In this document: positions 4,425 through 29,407 of the stretch, one piece after another
Layout: each line of letters begins with the position of its first letter
Numbering within the stretch: the stretch's first letter is position 1
Origin: Bacillota bacterium
Lineage (GTDB): Bacteria; Bacillota; Clostridia; Peptostreptococcales; Anaerovoracaceae
Reading direction: 5' to 3'
NCBI GenBank assembly: GCA_029008005.1
Contig: JAQXIX010000040.1
Span: forward strand, 1-39,414
Length of the DNA stretch: 39,414 nt
Program-made: the position numbers and the translations under genes
The notes under the pieces: model-generated
Database searches by the model: none
What the model was told of the DNA's origin: nothing
What the model saw: only the letters and a program-made list of their open reading frames with translations

Positions 4425-6614
4425 TTACGGCAGATAGTTTTCCGGATTTCTGAAGCTTCCGTTAACTTTCACACCGAAATGTATGTGCGGTCCTGTACTT
4501 CTGCCTGTACTTCCCGATTCTGCTATATGCTTGCCCTGGTACACCTTATCTCCTACTCTGACAAGCAGTTTGCTGTTGTGAGCATAGTACGTATGCACTC
4601 CGTTCTGGTGGTCTATAACGACAAGGTTTCCGTAGGAACCGTGGTATCCCGCTTCAATAACTGTACCTCCGTCAGATGCCAGTACATCCGTACCCATTGA
4701 ACATGCCATATCGATACCATCATGATTTCTTCCCCATCTAGGACCGTATCTCGATGATATTCTGTAACTGCCGTTCGTAGGCCATATGTACGTGCCTGTT
4801 CCTGTTGTCGGCGGTGTTTTAGCAGTTCCGACACTGACAATTTTAGCTACCGGTTCCTTTGTGACTTCTTTGGAGATAACCCTGTTATCCGATACTTCTC
4901 CGTTAACATATACAGTTTCCTCGACTATGTGCGAGCTTCCGTTTTCTCCTTTTCTCTCGATTCTTGTTGTTCCTCTGTACAACTCGTCTGTTTTCTTTTC
5001 CTCGACCTCATATTTTATCGTCTGGTCATAAGTTCTTTTCTCTGTTACCTTGACGCTGAGCAGAGGCGCTTTCTGAATAATAAGAATCGGACTTCCGACT
5101 TCAAGCTTTTTCGGATCTATATTTTCATTTGTCGCCAGAATATCTTTTTCCTGAAGACCGTAATCGGTCGCAATATCCGAAAGGGTTTCTCCGACAACAA
5201 CAGTATGTGTTGTTTCCTTGGTTCCGCTTGTGCAGAGGATTTCCACCATTTCATCCCTTGTCTTGATATCTTCCACATCCGTGTTGCTTTTTTTGATTTC
5301 TATATCATCTGTTATAACGGCTTCAATAACTTCCGAGCCCTTCTTACCGCTTGCATAAATATCCTTTATATCTCCCAGAACATCTGCCGCAACCTCTTTA
5401 TTGGCAACAGCTCCGGCTTTCTTACCATCGATGTATATTCCGTATGCCTTAACGTTCAGGTCACCCATATATGTAAGTCTTCTGAGAACGTCATCTTGTC
5501 GGTCAATAGTAATATCATCATCGAATACTAATATTCTCTTGAATTTAATATCATTTCGCGCATCGATAACAACTTCCTGATTTCTCTCTTCGGTAAGTGC
5601 ATCCCTTACCATCTCGGTTATCTGAAGCACATCATCTCTGTTCTTCACGTATCCGAGAGTTTTGCCGTTATACGAGTACTCGTAAACAGAGAAATTATTG
5701 ATGAACGTTCCTGTTATTACAATTATCAGTATCAGTACAGAAAGCGCAATCAGAAGCTCTGCTTTTTTCTTATCACAAAATTCTCCCAGCTCTCTGAATT
5801 TCTGAACTACCGGGTTGTTATTGCGTCTTTCTTTCCTTAGTTTCGCCAGTTTGACTGCGGTTTCCCTTGCCTGTATTCGCTTTACTTCCGCATCTCTTAC
5901 AAGCTGATCCAGTTCCTCCGGTGACTCTGCTTCCCTGATTTTCTTACGGCTTATGTGCCCCAGGTATTCTCTCCACGAAAAGGAAGGGACAAGCTGTACT
6001 TCAGTTGAAACCTCTGTTCCGTGAACCTTGACTATGCCCGCTCCGAGTTCCGCAGATTTCTTGGCGATTTTTCTCTGCTTTCTCAGCTGCTTTTTCAGCG
6101 CACCCTTCTCTTCTTTTTCCCTGCGAAGCTGCTCCTCTAATTCATGCTTTACCTGTTCATATTCCCTTTTCGTTTCTTCTCTTTTTTTCTTCTGGAGAGC
6201 TCGCTGCTCTTCTATAATGCGCTGGAATTCCTTATGTTCTTCCTTTTTCTTACGGCGCTGCCTTTCAGCGATTTTTTTTCGCTCTTCTTCAATAGCCTTT
6301 TTCTCTGTGCGCTGTCTTTCCGCTGCAATTTTTTTAGCGCTGGCATATGCCCGCTTTTCCTCTGCAGTAAGCTTTCTCTCAATATTCCTTCTAATCCGCT
6401 CAGCGTCCTTCTCTACACTCCGGTCATTAGTCTTCGCATGCCTTTCAAATATTTTGCGGGGGTCATGAACTTCAGGCTCGGGAACATTATGGACCATTTC
6501 CTCGCTTCTCTTTCTGAAGGAAGCGACCATATCATTTATGCTGTCTGCTTCTCCCGAAACTTTTCCTATTTGATTTCTGTTTTTGTTTTCTTTATCTCCC
6601 AAAAGCAATGGCAC
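4425..6614 (-). CDS. Membrane-anchored M23 peptidoglycan endopeptidase with LysM and G5 domains and a long cytoplasmic coiled coil
   Basis: Domains in order (729 residues): a highly charged Lys/Glu/Arg coiled-coil region at about 50-265, a single membrane helix at 287-305, an extracellular linker, LysM at about 470-514 (HTVVVGETLSDIATDYGL), a G5 domain at about 518-597, and an M23 peptidase at 615-729. Zinc ligands are visible: His631 and Asp635 in NHDGIDMA and His712 in GPHIHFG, with His679 in TYYAHNS as a catalytic helper. M23 enzymes cut peptide cross-bridges in peptidoglycan; LysM and G5 bind wall glycan. The start is GTG with AGGAG about 5 bases upstream, overlapping the preceding gene by 49 bases. 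An ATG at residue 29 is the alternative. The 280-residue cytoplasmic part is far longer than usual for this family. All active-site residues are present. Confidence 0.9.
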   Translation of the reverse strand: MPLLLGDKENKNRNQIGKVSGEADSINDMVASFRKRSEEMVHNVPEPEVHDPRKIFERHAKTNDRSVEKDAERIRRNIERKLTAEEKRAYASAKKIAAERQRTEKKAIEEERKKIAERQRRKKKEEHKEFQRIIEEQRALQKKKREETKREYEQVKHELEEQLRREKEEKGALKKQLRKQRKIAKKSAELGAGIVKVHGTEVSTEVQLVPSFSWREYLGHISRKKIREAESPEELDQLVRDAEVKRIQARETAVKLAKLRKERRNNNPVVQKFRELGEFCDKKKAELLIALSVLILIIVITGTFINNFSVYEYSYNGKTLGYVKNRDDVLQITEMVRDALTEERNQEVVIDARNDIKFKRILVFDDDITIDRQDDVLRRLTYMGDLNVKAYGIYIDGKKAGAVANKEVAADVLGDIKDIYASGKKGSEVIEAVITDDIEIKKSNTDVEDIKTRDEMVEILCTSGTKETTHTVVVGETLSDIATDYGLQEKDILATNENIDPKKLEVGSPILIIQKAPLLSVKVTEKRTYDQTIKYEVEEKKTDELYRGTTRIERKGENGSSHIVEETVYVNGEVSDNRVISKEVTKEPVAKIVSVGTAKTPPTTGTGTYIWPTNGSYRISSRYGPRWGRNHDGIDMACSMGTDVLASDGGTVIEAGYHGSYGNLVVIDHQNGVHTYYAHNSKLLVRVGDKVYQGKHIAESGSTGRSTGPHIHFGVKVNGSFRNPENYLP

Positions 6615-7804
6615 CTTTCTCCTGTATCAAGTATGCCTGTATCGCGACATTCTTCACAGGTGTATTTTATATCCATGTAATCCATTTCAAATCCGTTATC
6701 CGTAAGGAGCACGGCTCTTTCTGCATTAAGTGAATCCACCGTTTCTTTTATTGCCGTCGTACTCTCTTTTTTATCAACTTTGTCGGAAATGATTATCTTC
6801 GAAATTTCTCTGTTAAGTCTGTTTATCTCATTGTCTATTTCTTTTATTCTCGGTATTTTGAAGTATATTTCACGTCTTCTTTCTTCCGCTTCTTCTTCTT
6901 CGCGCGTTCTCAGCTCCTCATAGTATTTCATGATTTTACCTGTCGAAAGACCGCCGCTCTTTGCCGATTCGTTTTCGGCTTCTTTGCGGTTAAGAAGAAT
7001 TTTGTTTACGTATTTAATGTTCGGACTGGAAATTCCCGTCGTTCCGGCACATGCCTCGAGCACCTGCTCAAGAGTGAATCCCATTTCGCCGAACCAGCTG
7101 TCCATAATCTTTTTCTCTTCTTCTGTTGCGTTCCTGTTAAATCCCAGAGCTCGGAACACTCTCTTATATAAATGTTGTTTTTTATCTTCTTCTGCGAGAC
7201 GTCTTTCTACGTCTTCTGCTGTTCGAAGACCGTCTCCTGCCCAGTCTCGAACTACTGCTTCCACATACCTGGTGCCGGTGCTTTTGCCTCTGGTCGCACA
7301 GTGCTCAAAGGCATACGTAATAAGTTCCGGCGTCGCGTTATATGTGTCCGCCCACGAAATTATTTCATTGCATTCCGAACTGTTTATCATTCTTCCTGCT
7401 ATCTTCTCAATATCTGCCAGCATCCTTCTTATCTCTGCATCTGCCGGTCCGTCATCTTCTTCAGTAAATATCTGCGGTTCCTCTTCTCCGTACAGAATTT
7501 CCTTCAGCCGCAGAAACTCTATATCATAATCAAATCTGCCTCCGTCTTTGCGGTGAATTTTTTTAACAGCGCCCATCTGCTCCCAGTAGTTCCACGCCTT
7601 GAAAACATCTTCAATATCCATATTAAGATGTTTGGCAATGTCCTCGTTGGAAAAATCCACGCCAATATCCGCATACATGAGAGAAAACAGATATACTTTC
7701 ACGTAATCTCCCGGTGCGCCGGGCATATATTCATTTATAAAAAGGTTTTCTACATTAGTGTCGTGAAGAAAATAATCCTTGTAGCCTTCTCTTCTAAATG
7801 CCAT
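6566..7804 (-). CDS. DnaD-domain replication protein fused to a DnaC/DnaI-type N-terminal zinc domain (no AAA+ domain)
   Basis: The first ~100 residues form a winged-helix-like DnaD N-terminal module (residues 25-100, YVKVYLFSLMYADIG). A DnaD C-terminal domain follows at about 205-270 (FRALGFNRNATEEEKKIMDS, GISSPNIKYVNKILLNR). From about 285 the protein changes to the N-terminal region of clostridial helicase loaders: a basic helix, KIPRIKEIDNEI, and a zinc motif C383-x2-C386-x11-C398-x-C400 with DTG between the pairs. The protein stops 12 residues later, where a DnaC loader would enter its AAA+ ATPase. No Walker A motif is present. It lies directly after dnaB helicase (27-base gap) and has GGAG before its ATG. 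Loader N-domains are known to contact DnaB; a role as a helicase adaptor is inference. Confidence 0.87.
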   Translation of the reverse strand: MAFRREGYKDYFLHDTNVENLFINEYMPGAPGDYVKVYLFSLMYADIGVDFSNEDIAKHLNMDIEDVFKAWNYWEQMGAVKKIHRKDGGRFDYDIEFLRLKEILYGEEEPQIFTEEDDGPADAEIRRMLADIEKIAGRMINSSECNEIISWADTYNATPELITYAFEHCATRGKSTGTRYVEAVVRDWAGDGLRTAEDVERRLAEEDKKQHLYKRVFRALGFNRNATEEEKKIMDSWFGEMGFTLEQVLEACAGTTGISSPNIKYVNKILLNRKEAENESAKSGGLSTGKIMKYYEELRTREEEEAEERRREIYFKIPRIKEIDNEINRLNREISKIIISDKVDKKESTTAIKETVDSLNAERAVLLTDNGFEMDYMDIKYTCEECRDTGILDTGERCHCFWEIKKTKTEIK

Positions 7805-7831: not shown

Positions 7832-9163
7832 TCAGAAAGTGCTGATGCTTCCCGCACTATCAACAAATTTCGTGATTTTATCTACCCAGGCAACTTTAAC
7901 TGTTCCCGTTGGACCGCTTCTCTGTTTAGCCAAAATAACCTCGCACTCTCCCGGATTCTCAGTATCTTCATTGTAATATTCATCTCTGTAGAGAAATATT
8001 ACGATATCCGCATCCTGCTCTATGGATCCCGATTCTCTCAAGTCAGATAGCATAGGTCTGTGGTCTGTTCTTGTTTCAGGTGCTCTCGAAAGCTGTGAAA
8101 GCACTACAACAGGGCAGTCCAGTTCTCTGGCCAGGAGCTTAAGATTTCTTGAAATCGTTGAAATCTCCTGGGTTCTGGAATCTGCCTTCCCTTCCGGGGT
8201 CATTAGCTGCAGGTAGTCGATAAGAACAAGATCAAGAGATTTTTCTGCCTTAAGTCTTCTGCACTTGCTCTTCATCTCCATTAAGGTTATTCCCGCCGTA
8301 TCATCAATATGAATATCTGCCTCAGATAATATATCGAGAGCTTCATTTATGTCATCCCAGTCATGTCTCTCCAGGCGTCCGGTTTTCAGCTTCTGCATTT
8401 CAACCTTTGACTCCATGGACAAAAGTCTCTGCCCCAGCTGCTCTTTTGCCATTTCCATACTGAAAATCATGACGGATGCCTTGCCCTTGACTGCTGCATT
8501 TAATGCCAGTGTCAGTGCAAAGGCTGTTTTTCCCATTGCCGGCCTAGCCGCGAGAATTATCAGGTCTGATTTCTGCAACCCTGATGTTTTGCTGTCCAGA
8601 TCTTTAAATCCTGTCGTTATTCCCGTCAGACCGCCGTCCAGCTGGGACGCCTTCTCAATTGTCACTATATTGTCAATGAGCACGTCCTTGATATGTGTAT
8701 ACTGACCCTTCTGCCGCGCCTGCGATATCTGAAATATTCCGCTTTCGGCATAGTCCAGAAGTGCGTTGGCATCCATTGAATCTTCATACCCTTTGGCAAC
8801 AACGTCATCTGCCATGGTAATCATTTTTCTGACTGAGGATTTCTCGGCAACAATCTTCGCGTACTGCTCGGCATTGGCCAGTGTCGGTGTCTCGGATGAC
8901 AGTGAGCCGACATATGCTCTGCCGCCAACCATGTTGAGTGTGTTTCTTTTTTCCAGACACTCTGAAACGGTAAGCGCATCAACAGGTTCATTTCGCTTAC
9001 CCAGTTCGGTTATTGCTCTGAAGATTTCCTTATGGCTTTCGTCATAAAAATCTTCCGCTTTAACGGTTTCGATTACATCATAAAGGGCGTCCTTTGACAG
9101 GAGCGCTGCCCCAAGCACTGCTTTCTCAGCATCCTGATTGTGAGGAGGTATTCTTCCTTCCAT
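7832..9163 (-). CDS. dnaB: Replicative DNA helicase DnaB
   Basis: DnaB is the hexameric 5'-3' helicase that unwinds DNA ahead of the fork and recruits primase. The 443-residue protein begins with the helical N-terminal domain (PHNQDAEKAVLGA), then the RecA-like motor with Walker A AARPAMGKTAFAL at about 205-217, Walker B LVLIDYLQLM, and the late motifs LSQLSRAPE and DLRESGSIEQDADIV. Length and motifs are full and normal (this gene is called dnaC in Bacillus subtilis). AAGGAG lies before the ATG. It is placed between rplI and the DnaD-like gene, the usual rplI-dnaB neighbourhood of Firmicutes. Confidence 0.98.
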   Translation of the reverse strand: MEGRIPPHNQDAEKAVLGAALLSKDALYDVIETVKAEDFYDESHKEIFRAITELGKRNEPVDALTVSECLEKRNTLNMVGGRAYVGSLSSETPTLANAEQYAKIVAEKSSVRKMITMADDVVAKGYEDSMDANALLDYAESGIFQISQARQKGQYTHIKDVLIDNIVTIEKASQLDGGLTGITTGFKDLDSKTSGLQKSDLIILAARPAMGKTAFALTLALNAAVKGKASVMIFSMEMAKEQLGQRLLSMESKVEMQKLKTGRLERHDWDDINEALDILSEADIHIDDTAGITLMEMKSKCRRLKAEKSLDLVLIDYLQLMTPEGKADSRTQEISTISRNLKLLARELDCPVVVLSQLSRAPETRTDHRPMLSDLRESGSIEQDADIVIFLYRDEYYNEDTENPGECEVILAKQRSGPTGTVKVAWVDKITKFVDSAGSISTF

Positions 9164-27974: not shown

Positions 27975-29351
27975 TTAGATTATTTCATCTTTTATCATTT
28001 TAATGTCATCTGCGAGGGACTGGTTTGTTTTTAATTCTTTAGTTATTTTCTCGCAGGCATGTAAAACTGTAGTATGATCTTTGCCTCCGAAGGAAAGTCC
28101 TATTTTAGGAAGAGAAAGATCTGTCATTTCTCTGCACAGATACATTGCAATCTGTCTTGGATAAGTATATTCTCTTTTTCTTTTGGAAGATTCTATATCC
28201 GAAAGCTTGATGCCGAATTTTTTACATACTGCATTTTTTATTGTTTCACAGGAAATGTCTCCGTCTCTTGAGGTAAATATATCTCTAAGACTTTCCTTGG
28301 CAAACTTAACTGTTATTTTTTTATTGAATACTTTAGAGAAACTTATTATTCTCGTGAGTGCGCTTTCAAGTTCTCTGATATTGAATTTGACTCTTTCTGC
28401 AATCAGATTGATTACTTCCAGAACATCGTCATCCAGTTCTATATCTTCAAGCTCCGCCTTATTTCTAAGAATAGCAACTCTTGTTTCGAAATCAGGCGGC
28501 TGTATATCAGCAACAACATTCCATTGAAATCTGGATTTCAGTCTGTCATCAAGGTCTTTAAGTTTACTTGGTGAGCGGTCACTTGATATTACTATTTGCT
28601 TGTCAAATTCATAAAGCGTATTGAAAGTATGGAAAAATTCGTTCTGAGTAGCTTCTTTACCTTCGATAAACTGGATATCGTCAATAAGGAGAACATCAAC
28701 TGTTCTGTACTTCTGCTTAAATGAATTGAGCCTGCTGTTTGAGTTGTTAGGATCTCTTATTGCCTGAAGGAGTTCATTGGTGAACATTTCCGAAGAAACA
28801 TAGAGAACTTTCATTTCGGGATTGTGCTGCAGAATGTAATGTCCTATCGCATGCATCAGATGAGTCTTCCCAAGACCTGATCCCCCGTAAATAAAAAGCG
28901 GATTATAAACCTTGGCCGGAGTTTCGGCAACAGCTAAAGCTACAGCATGTGCATAGTTGTTATTAGAACCAATGATAAAGTTATCAAAATTATATCTTGG
29001 GTTAAGAAAATATTCTTCTTTATATGAGAAATCCTCATCTCTGGTGTTTTTTGATTTAACCGGCGATGATTCTTTTTCATTAGAGTTATTCTTATGAATT
29101 ATTTTTACGGAATATGATTTTTTATATACTTTTTTTATGCTTTCTTCAAGCAGTGATATGTATTTTGAATTTTTATTTAGAACCTGAACCTTGAAATTAT
29201 CCGTAGATGAAATATAGAATGTCTTGTTGTCTTCATTGATTTCTAACGGTGTGAGTGGAAGAAACCATGTTTTATAGCTTACAGATGTAATTTCTTTACT
29301 GATTTCAAAAAGTATGCTTTTCCATTTTTCTTTATCTATTTTAGAAGTCAT
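27975..29351 (-). CDS. dnaA: Chromosomal replication initiator DnaA
   Basis: DnaA binds origin boxes and melts DNA to start replication. From the ATG at 29351 the protein has 458 residues: domain I (WKSILFEISKEITSVSYKTW), a short polar linker, the AAA+ domain with Walker A GGSGLGKTH at 156-164 and Walker B LLIDDIQFIEG, and the C-terminal helix-turn-helix with YPRQIAMYLCREMTDLSLP and GGKDHTTVLHA, the box-recognition signature. I chose this start because AAAGGA sits 8 bases before it; a longer frame to 29387 lies within the promoter. DnaA boxes flank the gene on both sides, and one overlaps its promoter, suggesting autoregulation. Confidence 0.98.
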   Translation of the reverse strand: MTSKIDKEKWKSILFEISKEITSVSYKTWFLPLTPLEINEDNKTFYISSTDNFKVQVLNKNSKYISLLEESIKKVYKKSYSVKIIHKNNSNEKESSPVKSKNTRDEDFSYKEEYFLNPRYNFDNFIIGSNNNYAHAVALAVAETPAKVYNPLFIYGGSGLGKTHLMHAIGHYILQHNPEMKVLYVSSEMFTNELLQAIRDPNNSNSRLNSFKQKYRTVDVLLIDDIQFIEGKEATQNEFFHTFNTLYEFDKQIVISSDRSPSKLKDLDDRLKSRFQWNVVADIQPPDFETRVAILRNKAELEDIELDDDVLEVINLIAERVKFNIRELESALTRIISFSKVFNKKITVKFAKESLRDIFTSRDGDISCETIKNAVCKKFGIKLSDIESSKRKREYTYPRQIAMYLCREMTDLSLPKIGLSFGGKDHTTVLHACEKITKELKTNQSLADDIKMIKDEII

Positions 29352-29378
29352 ATACAATCCTTTCAAATAAGTAAATAT

Positions 29379-29407
29379 ATAATACAAAAAAAGTTATCCA
29401 CAGGCAA
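29379..29407 (-). promoter_or_regulatory. Likely dnaA promoter overlapping a DnaA box
   Basis: Minus strand TTGCCT (29407-29402), a 17-base spacer and TATTAT (29384-29379), 28 bases before the dnaA ATG. The consensus DnaA box TTATCCACA (29394-29402) lies in the spacer and touches the -35, so bound DnaA would block polymerase. Confidence 0.65.

Follow-up and report, generated by a model that had tools for sequence, protein, structure and literature searches.

Can a bacterium load its replicative helicase with a protein that grips the helicase and carries no loader ATPase? The question is raised by a gene in a 39,414-nucleotide stretch of a Bacillota genome (GenBank assembly GCA_029008005.1, contig JAQXIX010000040.1; the window, meaning this whole stretch) that encodes a 412-residue protein directly after the dnaB replicative helicase gene, as originally predicted, with a gap of 27 nucleotides. 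Sequence and profile comparisons confirmed that the protein, P0001, consists of DnaD and, attached to it, the entire helicase-binding domain (HBD), zinc motif included, of a clostridial DnaC/DnaI-type loader, without the AAA+ ATPase of that loader. We conclude that this fusion is probably a one-piece, ATPase-free loader of the replicative helicase, in which DnaD covalently carries the helicase-gripping domain. The coordinates of the features discussed here are given in Table 1.

The original prediction had read the protein as two DnaD domains followed by a loader-type N-terminal region, and both parts were borne out. PF07261 matched the DnaD portion in two stretches (E = 4e-25), and NF005304, the NCBIfam model for a clostridial DnaC-type loader, aligned over positions 8 to 118 of 330 with residues 290 to 401 (E = 7.1e-28; 97.7 bits, where the cut-off of 215 bits is set for the whole loader and a lower score is expected from one domain). 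In profile-profile comparisons with hhalign, the fusion aligned with ordinary DnaD of the same order from residue 1 to residue 284 (288 columns, columns 1 to 289; E = 6e-85) and with ordinary DnaC over 123 gapless columns corresponding to DnaC positions 8 to 130 (probability, 99.9; E = 9e-34). Based on NF005304, hhalign, and predicted helices, residues 287 to 409 are clearly a loader N-domain, in keeping with the similarity expected for residues 280 to 412; this region includes KIPRIKEIDNEI at residues 316 to 327. No match to an AAA+ family in Pfam or to DciA (PF05258) was found in P0001 up to an E value of 10. Also as predicted, the unbroken frame ends 12 residues after the C-x2-C-x11-C-x-C motif (residues 383 to 400), and the next gene, which encodes an M23 endopeptidase and in its longest reading overlaps the end of the fusion gene, lies in a different frame.

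We compared 44 distinct translated fusions (that of the window, those of six related loci from metagenome-assembled genomes, L006 to L011, and 37 from f1 genomes), picked for full-length matches from the best-scoring loci, with 16 ordinary DnaDs and 15 ordinary DnaCs. Here, f and g labels denote family and genus groupings of the surveyed genomes; the window belongs to f1, which we assume may correspond to Anaerovoracaceae (Clostridiales Family XIII). Eight residues are invariant in all 15 ordinary DnaCs (Y17, R21, P40, C105, C108, D110, C120, and C122), and all occur in the fusion at a constant offset of 278. Seven of the eight are invariant among the 44 fusions, including the four zinc-motif cysteines (44/44 aligned), and Y295 is conserved in at least 90%. 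The layout is common to all 44, which stop 7 to 24 residues (median, 12) after the zinc motif. In ordinary gene pairs (n = 15), dnaC starts −4 to 112 nucleotides after the dnaD stop. A DnaD C-terminal tail motif (..FHNFxQ..YSxEELE.., a pattern composed after inspection of the tails) matched 16 of 24 ordinary DnaDs and none of the fusions (0/44, and 0/24 in an overlapping set); it is also missing from both DnaDs of f16, the nearest to the f44 proteins described below.

Structure prediction gave a compatible picture. The AlphaFold2 model of the fusion (mean predicted local distance difference test [pLDDT] score, 82.7) comprises a winged-helix-like region, the helices of DnaD, and HBD helices at residues 288 to 316, 318 to 339, 345 to 369, and 399 to 411. 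An ordinary DnaC of the same order (mean pLDDT, 85.8) is predicted to have helices at 7 to 38, 40 to 50, 52 to 62, 67 to 91, and 121 to 134, followed by the AAA+ part, and at the offset of 278 the modeled HBD helices of the fusion follow the same pattern. Foldseek returned one PDB match at an E value of ≤0.001, B. subtilis DnaD (9a5c_B; E = 5e-5); the DnaD-like domains 2zc2, 2v79, and 5wtn matched more weakly (E = 0.07 to 0.25), with the DnaD N-terminal domain (NTD) 2v79 at 0.25. The profile of ordinary clostridial DnaC matches DnaI (4m4w; E = 8e-13) over profile positions 88 to 302 and therefore across the zinc motif.

A survey of related genomes, which the original prediction had proposed, revealed that the fusion is general in f1. 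P0001 matched 189 of 197 f1 genomes at an E value of ≤0.001, including all 108 with ≥90% completeness and ≤5% contamination; among the matches listed, most span residue 1 to 12 through residue 400 or beyond. A profile search of 45 chosen difficult genomes, three of them from the sister family f9, matched 37, including 22/22 at the same quality; some of these matches were fragmented (as in G006 and G082), and the eight misses are 60 to 89% complete. Across the order (297 genomes, 10 unmatched), full-length matches among those listed occurred in f1 and in three f9 genomes, and those listed from other families were partial only, to ordinary DnaD.

No separate, recognizable loader accompanied the fusion in the genomes examined. 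A full loader over the NF005304 cut-off was found in 0 of 197 f1 genomes, with no more than 10 candidates scored in each. Among the relatives, a full DnaC is present in 15 of 16 genomes from the order's other families, the exception being an f9 genome (G032) that carries the fusion. Within the window's genus, 0/25 genomes have a full DnaC and 23/25 have an N-domain match; in the remaining two (G002 and G006), the fusion profile matches just 280 and 39 positions. In the window's own genome, where all 28 candidates were scored, NF005304 found only the fusion, DnaA, which of the AAA+ proteins matched the loader model best, and an AAA+ hit in an 874-residue frame; PF01695 found only DnaA and a 328-residue frame resembling PhoH. 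DciA (PF05258) was detected in 0/41 relatives, 25 of them from f1, and in 7 of 14 control genomes. These genome contents suggest that a large clostridial group loads its replicative helicase without a loader ATPase.

To account for these observations, we propose that adjacent dnaD and dnaC genes fused in the ancestor of f1 and f9 and that the end of DnaD and the whole AAA+ domain of DnaC were lost, which would have left DnaD joined via a short linker to the complete HBD of DnaC. The DnaD part would be recruited at oriC by DnaA, its presumed recruiter, and probably by restart proteins as well, and would bind single-stranded DNA (ssDNA). The tethered zinc-containing HBDs would take hold of the DnaB ring, which they would open or assemble, and pass DnaB to the DNA, with release afterward via ssDNA and primase binding; such a protein would presumably be essential. 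No hydrolysis by a loader would be needed for ring opening or assembly. In clostridia, the DnaD tail may recruit the loader via its AAA+ domain, and a covalently attached HBD could have made both unnecessary.

Work on other bacteria is consistent with several of these steps. On its own, the HBD of E. coli DnaC loads DnaB with about half the efficiency of the wild type, and it also stimulates unwinding (PMC8213410); data for B. subtilis DnaI, whose zinc-containing NTD contacts the C-terminal domain of the helicase, suggest ATP-free loading (PMC3791466). In C. difficile, Walker A mutants of the loader promote loading and readily let go of active helicase, and ATP seems to lock the complex (PMC5204125). 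In B. subtilis, the DnaD NTD binds DnaA and its tail binds ssDNA and DnaB, and the C-terminal tail of DnaB binds the AAA+ domain of DnaI (PMC13326638). The original prediction offered two options, that the protein bridges DnaA or ssDNA to the helicase without a loader ATPase or that it works with a separate ATPase elsewhere; judged from gene content, bridging appears better supported, since no separate loader ATPase was seen.

Several points weigh against an ATPase-free loader. The window's own genome is 86% complete, the 197-genome search scored a limited number of candidates in each genome, and a loader unrelated in sequence would escape all of these searches. In E. coli, loading is less efficient without the AAA+ module (PMC8213410), so a compensating partner may exist. 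The predicted template modeling (pTM) score of the fusion model is 0.36, DnaI was absent among the first 50 Foldseek rows for that model, and the fusion profile matched DnaD structures and no DnaI among PDB sequences at an E value of ≤1; the link of the fusion to DnaI structures runs only through the profile of ordinary DnaC.

The option of a separate ATPase can be put in more specific form: the fusion would be a helicase adaptor, with AAA+ function supplied in trans by a second ATPase, most simply DnaA, or by an unrecognized AAA+ protein. We consider this unlikely, even though DnaA is the closest DnaC relative found in the window's own genome, B. subtilis DnaD binds DnaA (PMC13326638), and the AAA+ module increases loading efficiency in E. 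coli (PMC8213410). In vitro loading without a loader ATPase is documented in other bacteria, none of the 197 f1 genomes yielded a full loader over the cut-off among the candidates scored, and we saw no conserved extra DnaC-like AAA+ gene. Among 15 loci with DnaC-like AAA+ hits (13 from f1 and 2 from f44), most adjoin genes resembling those of recombinases, replication initiators, prophages, or IS21 (identified by eye), and we took the DnaC-like genes as mobile on that basis; in f1, most of those examined lie next to IS21-type, prophage-like, or conjugative-element-like genes. One locus, L078, gave no marker match.

Individual loci of this set have features of their own. At L066 to L072, in several f1 genomes, DnaC-like AAA+ genes encoding 283 residues lie beside an apparent replication initiator and mostly also a serine recombinase, in the style of a conjugative element. 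The DnaC-like genes at L063 to L065 (f1) look prophage-borne and those at L174 and L186 (f44) IS21-borne, all judged by eye.

A further alternative is that the HBD serves mainly as a brake or a recruitment handle, such that DnaB loads itself or is activated by primase and the fusion delivers the helicase to DnaA without opening the ring. In C. difficile, primase is a strong stimulator of the helicase also when no loader is present; in vitro, the helicase by itself showed a degree of strand displacement, and activity was lower with the wild-type loader (PMC5204125). We regard this reading as improbable: the HBD residues that are invariant in ordinary loaders are retained, the HBD of E. coli alone loads DnaB (PMC8213410), and it is not obvious why a mere handle would require the domain in full.

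That the fusion gene is a truncated relic of a dnaD-dnaC pair (through frameshift, assembly error, or pseudogene formation), with an intact loader elsewhere, is so improbable that we rejected it: although the gene is broken into three frames in one genome (G229), three congeners of G229 carry it as one open frame, 44 homologues, chosen as full-length matches, share the form, no complete dnaC lies downstream in six related loci, and no full loader over the cut-off was found among the candidates scored in 197 f1 genomes. The split gene (G229:C1:1528666-1529941) is in a one-contig assembly, and its breaks are possibly sequencing errors.

If the HBD of the fusion grips DnaB, its docking site might be expected on the linker helix (LH) and DH helix of the helicase. 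DciA, DnaC, and phage lambda P dock on this LH-DH module, for which DnaI-type docking is a prediction only (PMC9912922), a limit on the loader reading. In a scan of DnaB in windows of 17 residues, comparing 13 fusion-clade with 16 ordinary helicases (LH limits were set by the analyst and DH by its tryptophan, the long-branch helicase G036 was left out, and no f44 DnaB was included), the 12 most diverged windows all fell at residues 159 to 180 and 261 to 282, which are LH and DH. Divergence there was 1.9 and 2.1 times the mean between fusion-clade and ordinary helicases, versus 1.3 to 1.7 times between ordinary clades. Against a specific adaptation, LH also reaches 1.9 times when two parts of f1 are compared, and the 27 fixed differences include 3 in LH/DH, about the share expected from length; a first criterion of coevolution gave little signal on the helicase. 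We count the divergence as weak support because LH and DH vary in general, even within f1, and at most it hints at a retuned HBD-helicase contact. Within DH (helicase residues 266 to 282; window 8318-8368, minus strand), Asp277 is present in 13/13 fusion-clade and 0/16 ordinary helicases (again without G036).

Gene order and helicase phylogeny indicate how the fusion arose. Two f11 genomes and one f6 genome have a separate, adjacent dnaD-dnaC pair on the far side of purA from rplI-dnaB (purA and rplI identified by eye). The fusion occupies this site in two f9 genomes and one f1 genome, and in two other f1 genomes it directly follows dnaB. In a tree of the DnaB helicase, which is independent of the trait, f1 and f9 form one branch (13 of 30 rows; support, 100/100) with a long stem (0.36). 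Based on the synteny and the DnaB tree, fusion and AAA+ loss most likely occurred a single time, before f1 and f9 diverged.

The fusion also occurs in f44, a family of another order. In a survey of the class (393 genomes, 383 matching), four f44 genomes among the matches listed gave alignments extending to the profile's last positions, within frames of 408 to 458 residues; G479 covers profile positions 8 to 419, and the other three start at 121 to 136. The four loci, when translated, encode unbroken fusions of 405 to 450 residues with both parts and a stop soon after the zinc motif, in a different gene neighborhood, and both family models matched in 3/3 tested. No full DnaC over the cut-off was found in the 11 f44 genomes; 8 of them have the N-domain in frames of 405 to 458 residues, and the remaining 3 are 69 to 89% complete. 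Among the genomes surveyed at ≥85% completeness, the order of f44 is represented by f44 alone, and 6 of 7 genomes match. Other rows of the class survey that span a stop (G426 and G592, for example) proved to be separate genes where opened, a check that did not extend to G462, G465, and G528.

In a DnaD tree, the f44 proteins fall beside ordinary DnaDs of f16, and a single fusion clade is rejected (approximately unbiased test, P = 1.6e-36, with long branches in play). The HBD tree does not reject a single clade: its 24 fusions group together on the same side (94/71, not starred), which keeps a common origin of that part plausible. At only one HBD position do f1/f9 and f44 share a majority letter that differs from the ordinary majority. 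The trees point to two likely origins of the fusion, in f1 plus f9 and in f44. We lean slightly toward the broader view that DnaD with an orphan HBD and no loader ATPase is a further natural class of loader, which would have arisen at least twice (f1 plus f9, and f44) as dnaD fused to the start of dnaC and the AAA+ domain was discarded, and which would show that nature can do without the loader ATPase once recruitment is covalent.

We found no published description of a DnaD-HBD fusion in the accessible full-text literature, which takes in few subscription papers. Brezellec (2017) reportedly describes a further loader type. The parts of the fusion are known; the combination and the AAA+ loss are new. 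Its parts correspond to two gene kinds that are adjacent in C. difficile (CD3653-CD3654), for a DnaD-like protein and a DnaC/DnaI-type loader (PMC5204125), a likeness by gene kind. The clostridial pair makes two proteins, with a AAA+ domain in the loader, whereas the fusion is one protein that lacks both this domain and the DnaD tail motif. The B. subtilis DnaD/DnaB/DnaI system shares the DnaD fold and differs in having three separate proteins and in that the partner of the DnaB tail, the DnaI AAA+ domain, is missing from the fusion (PMC13326638). DciA is also described as an ATP-independent loader (PMC8213410), but it has a KH fold unrelated to DnaC/DnaI (PMC9912922). Phage lambda P, compared by description only, resembles DciA and DnaC in its docking on DnaB (PMC9912922). 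Another parallel is the HBD of E. coli DnaC, which loads DnaB in vitro without AAA+ (PMC8213410); that HBD is a laboratory fragment, whereas the fusion is a natural, fixed state joined to DnaD, and the N-domains of E. coli DnaC and DnaI are not homologous (PMC3791466).

These comparisons bear on the role of the loader ATPase, which is unsettled: in E. coli the HBD alone loads (PMC8213410), and in C. difficile ATP seems to lock (PMC5204125). A bacterial family with 0/197 full loaders over the cut-off, which kept the gripping domain and tied it to DnaD, seems to have carried out the removal of the loader ATPase naturally, and its fusion offers a natural minimal loader for reconstitution.

Two other ideas, a phage source and full-length fusion intermediates, were considered and rejected. 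For a phage source, the PHROGs database gave DnaD-like families for the front part, and the last 124 residues had no match below an E value of 0.001. Fifteen “phage” records matched, and all five fetched have dnaD and dnaC-type genes in separate frames (one dnaC is cut at the end of the record); 90 pattern matches in viral contigs included no relatives. Four of the five fetched records (L206, L207, L209, and L210; GenBank MT837496, MT836344, MT838492, and MT837698, labeled “Bacteriophage sp.”) look like bacterial chromosome fragments; each has an ordinary dnaD-dnaC pair and, by eye, a murC-like neighbor. Full-length DnaD-DnaC intermediates were suggested by frames of 680 to 730 residues; all six fetched regions (L165 to L170), out of a larger number of such rows, have separate dnaD and dnaC, and in L167 the DnaD domains lie within a 714-residue frame.

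Table 1. Positions of the fusion gene, its domains, and related genes in the window
Feature	Position	Strand	Basis or remark
dnaD-HBD fusion gene (P0001)	6566..7804	minus	412 aa; ATG start, TAG stop; PF07261 and NF005304 matches
N-terminal winged-helix-like (DnaD NTD) region, residues ~20-105	7490..7747	minus	AlphaFold2, Foldseek, hhalign
First DnaD domain (PF07261), residues 130-201	7202..7417	minus	Pfam; PDB sequences 2zc2, 8ojj
Second DnaD domain, residues ~205-280	6965..7192	minus	Limits from model and profile alignment
Helicase-binding N-domain (HBD), DnaC/DnaI-type loader, residues 287-409	6578..6946	minus	NF005304, hhalign, invariant residues, predicted helices
Zinc-knuckle motif C-x2-C-x11-C-x-C, residues 383-400	6605..6658	minus	12 residues before stop
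dnaB replicative helicase, 443 aa	7832..9163	minus	PF03796/PF00772; presumed HBD target
dnaA initiator (AAA+)	27975..29387	minus	Named by eye: sequence and partial match to loader AAA+ models
M23 endopeptidase with LysM and G5 domains	4425-6614	minus	Directly downstream of fusion

The DNA downstream of the fusion gene contains no remnant of a loader AAA+ domain that we could recognize. In the 900 nucleotides 3′ of the gene, tblastn with the 15 DnaCs gave a single match below an E value of 0.01 (E = 0.002), which covers residues 8 to 63 of one DnaC, within the N-domain and outside the AAA+ part; matches to later DnaC regions all had E values above 0.4 and were 7 to 35 residues long. A complete dnaC next to the locus in relatives had been named as a sign of a broken gene, and none follows the fusion in L006 to L011. 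An M23-type gene is likewise downstream of the fusion in L006 and, identified by eye, in L007, L009, L010, and L011.

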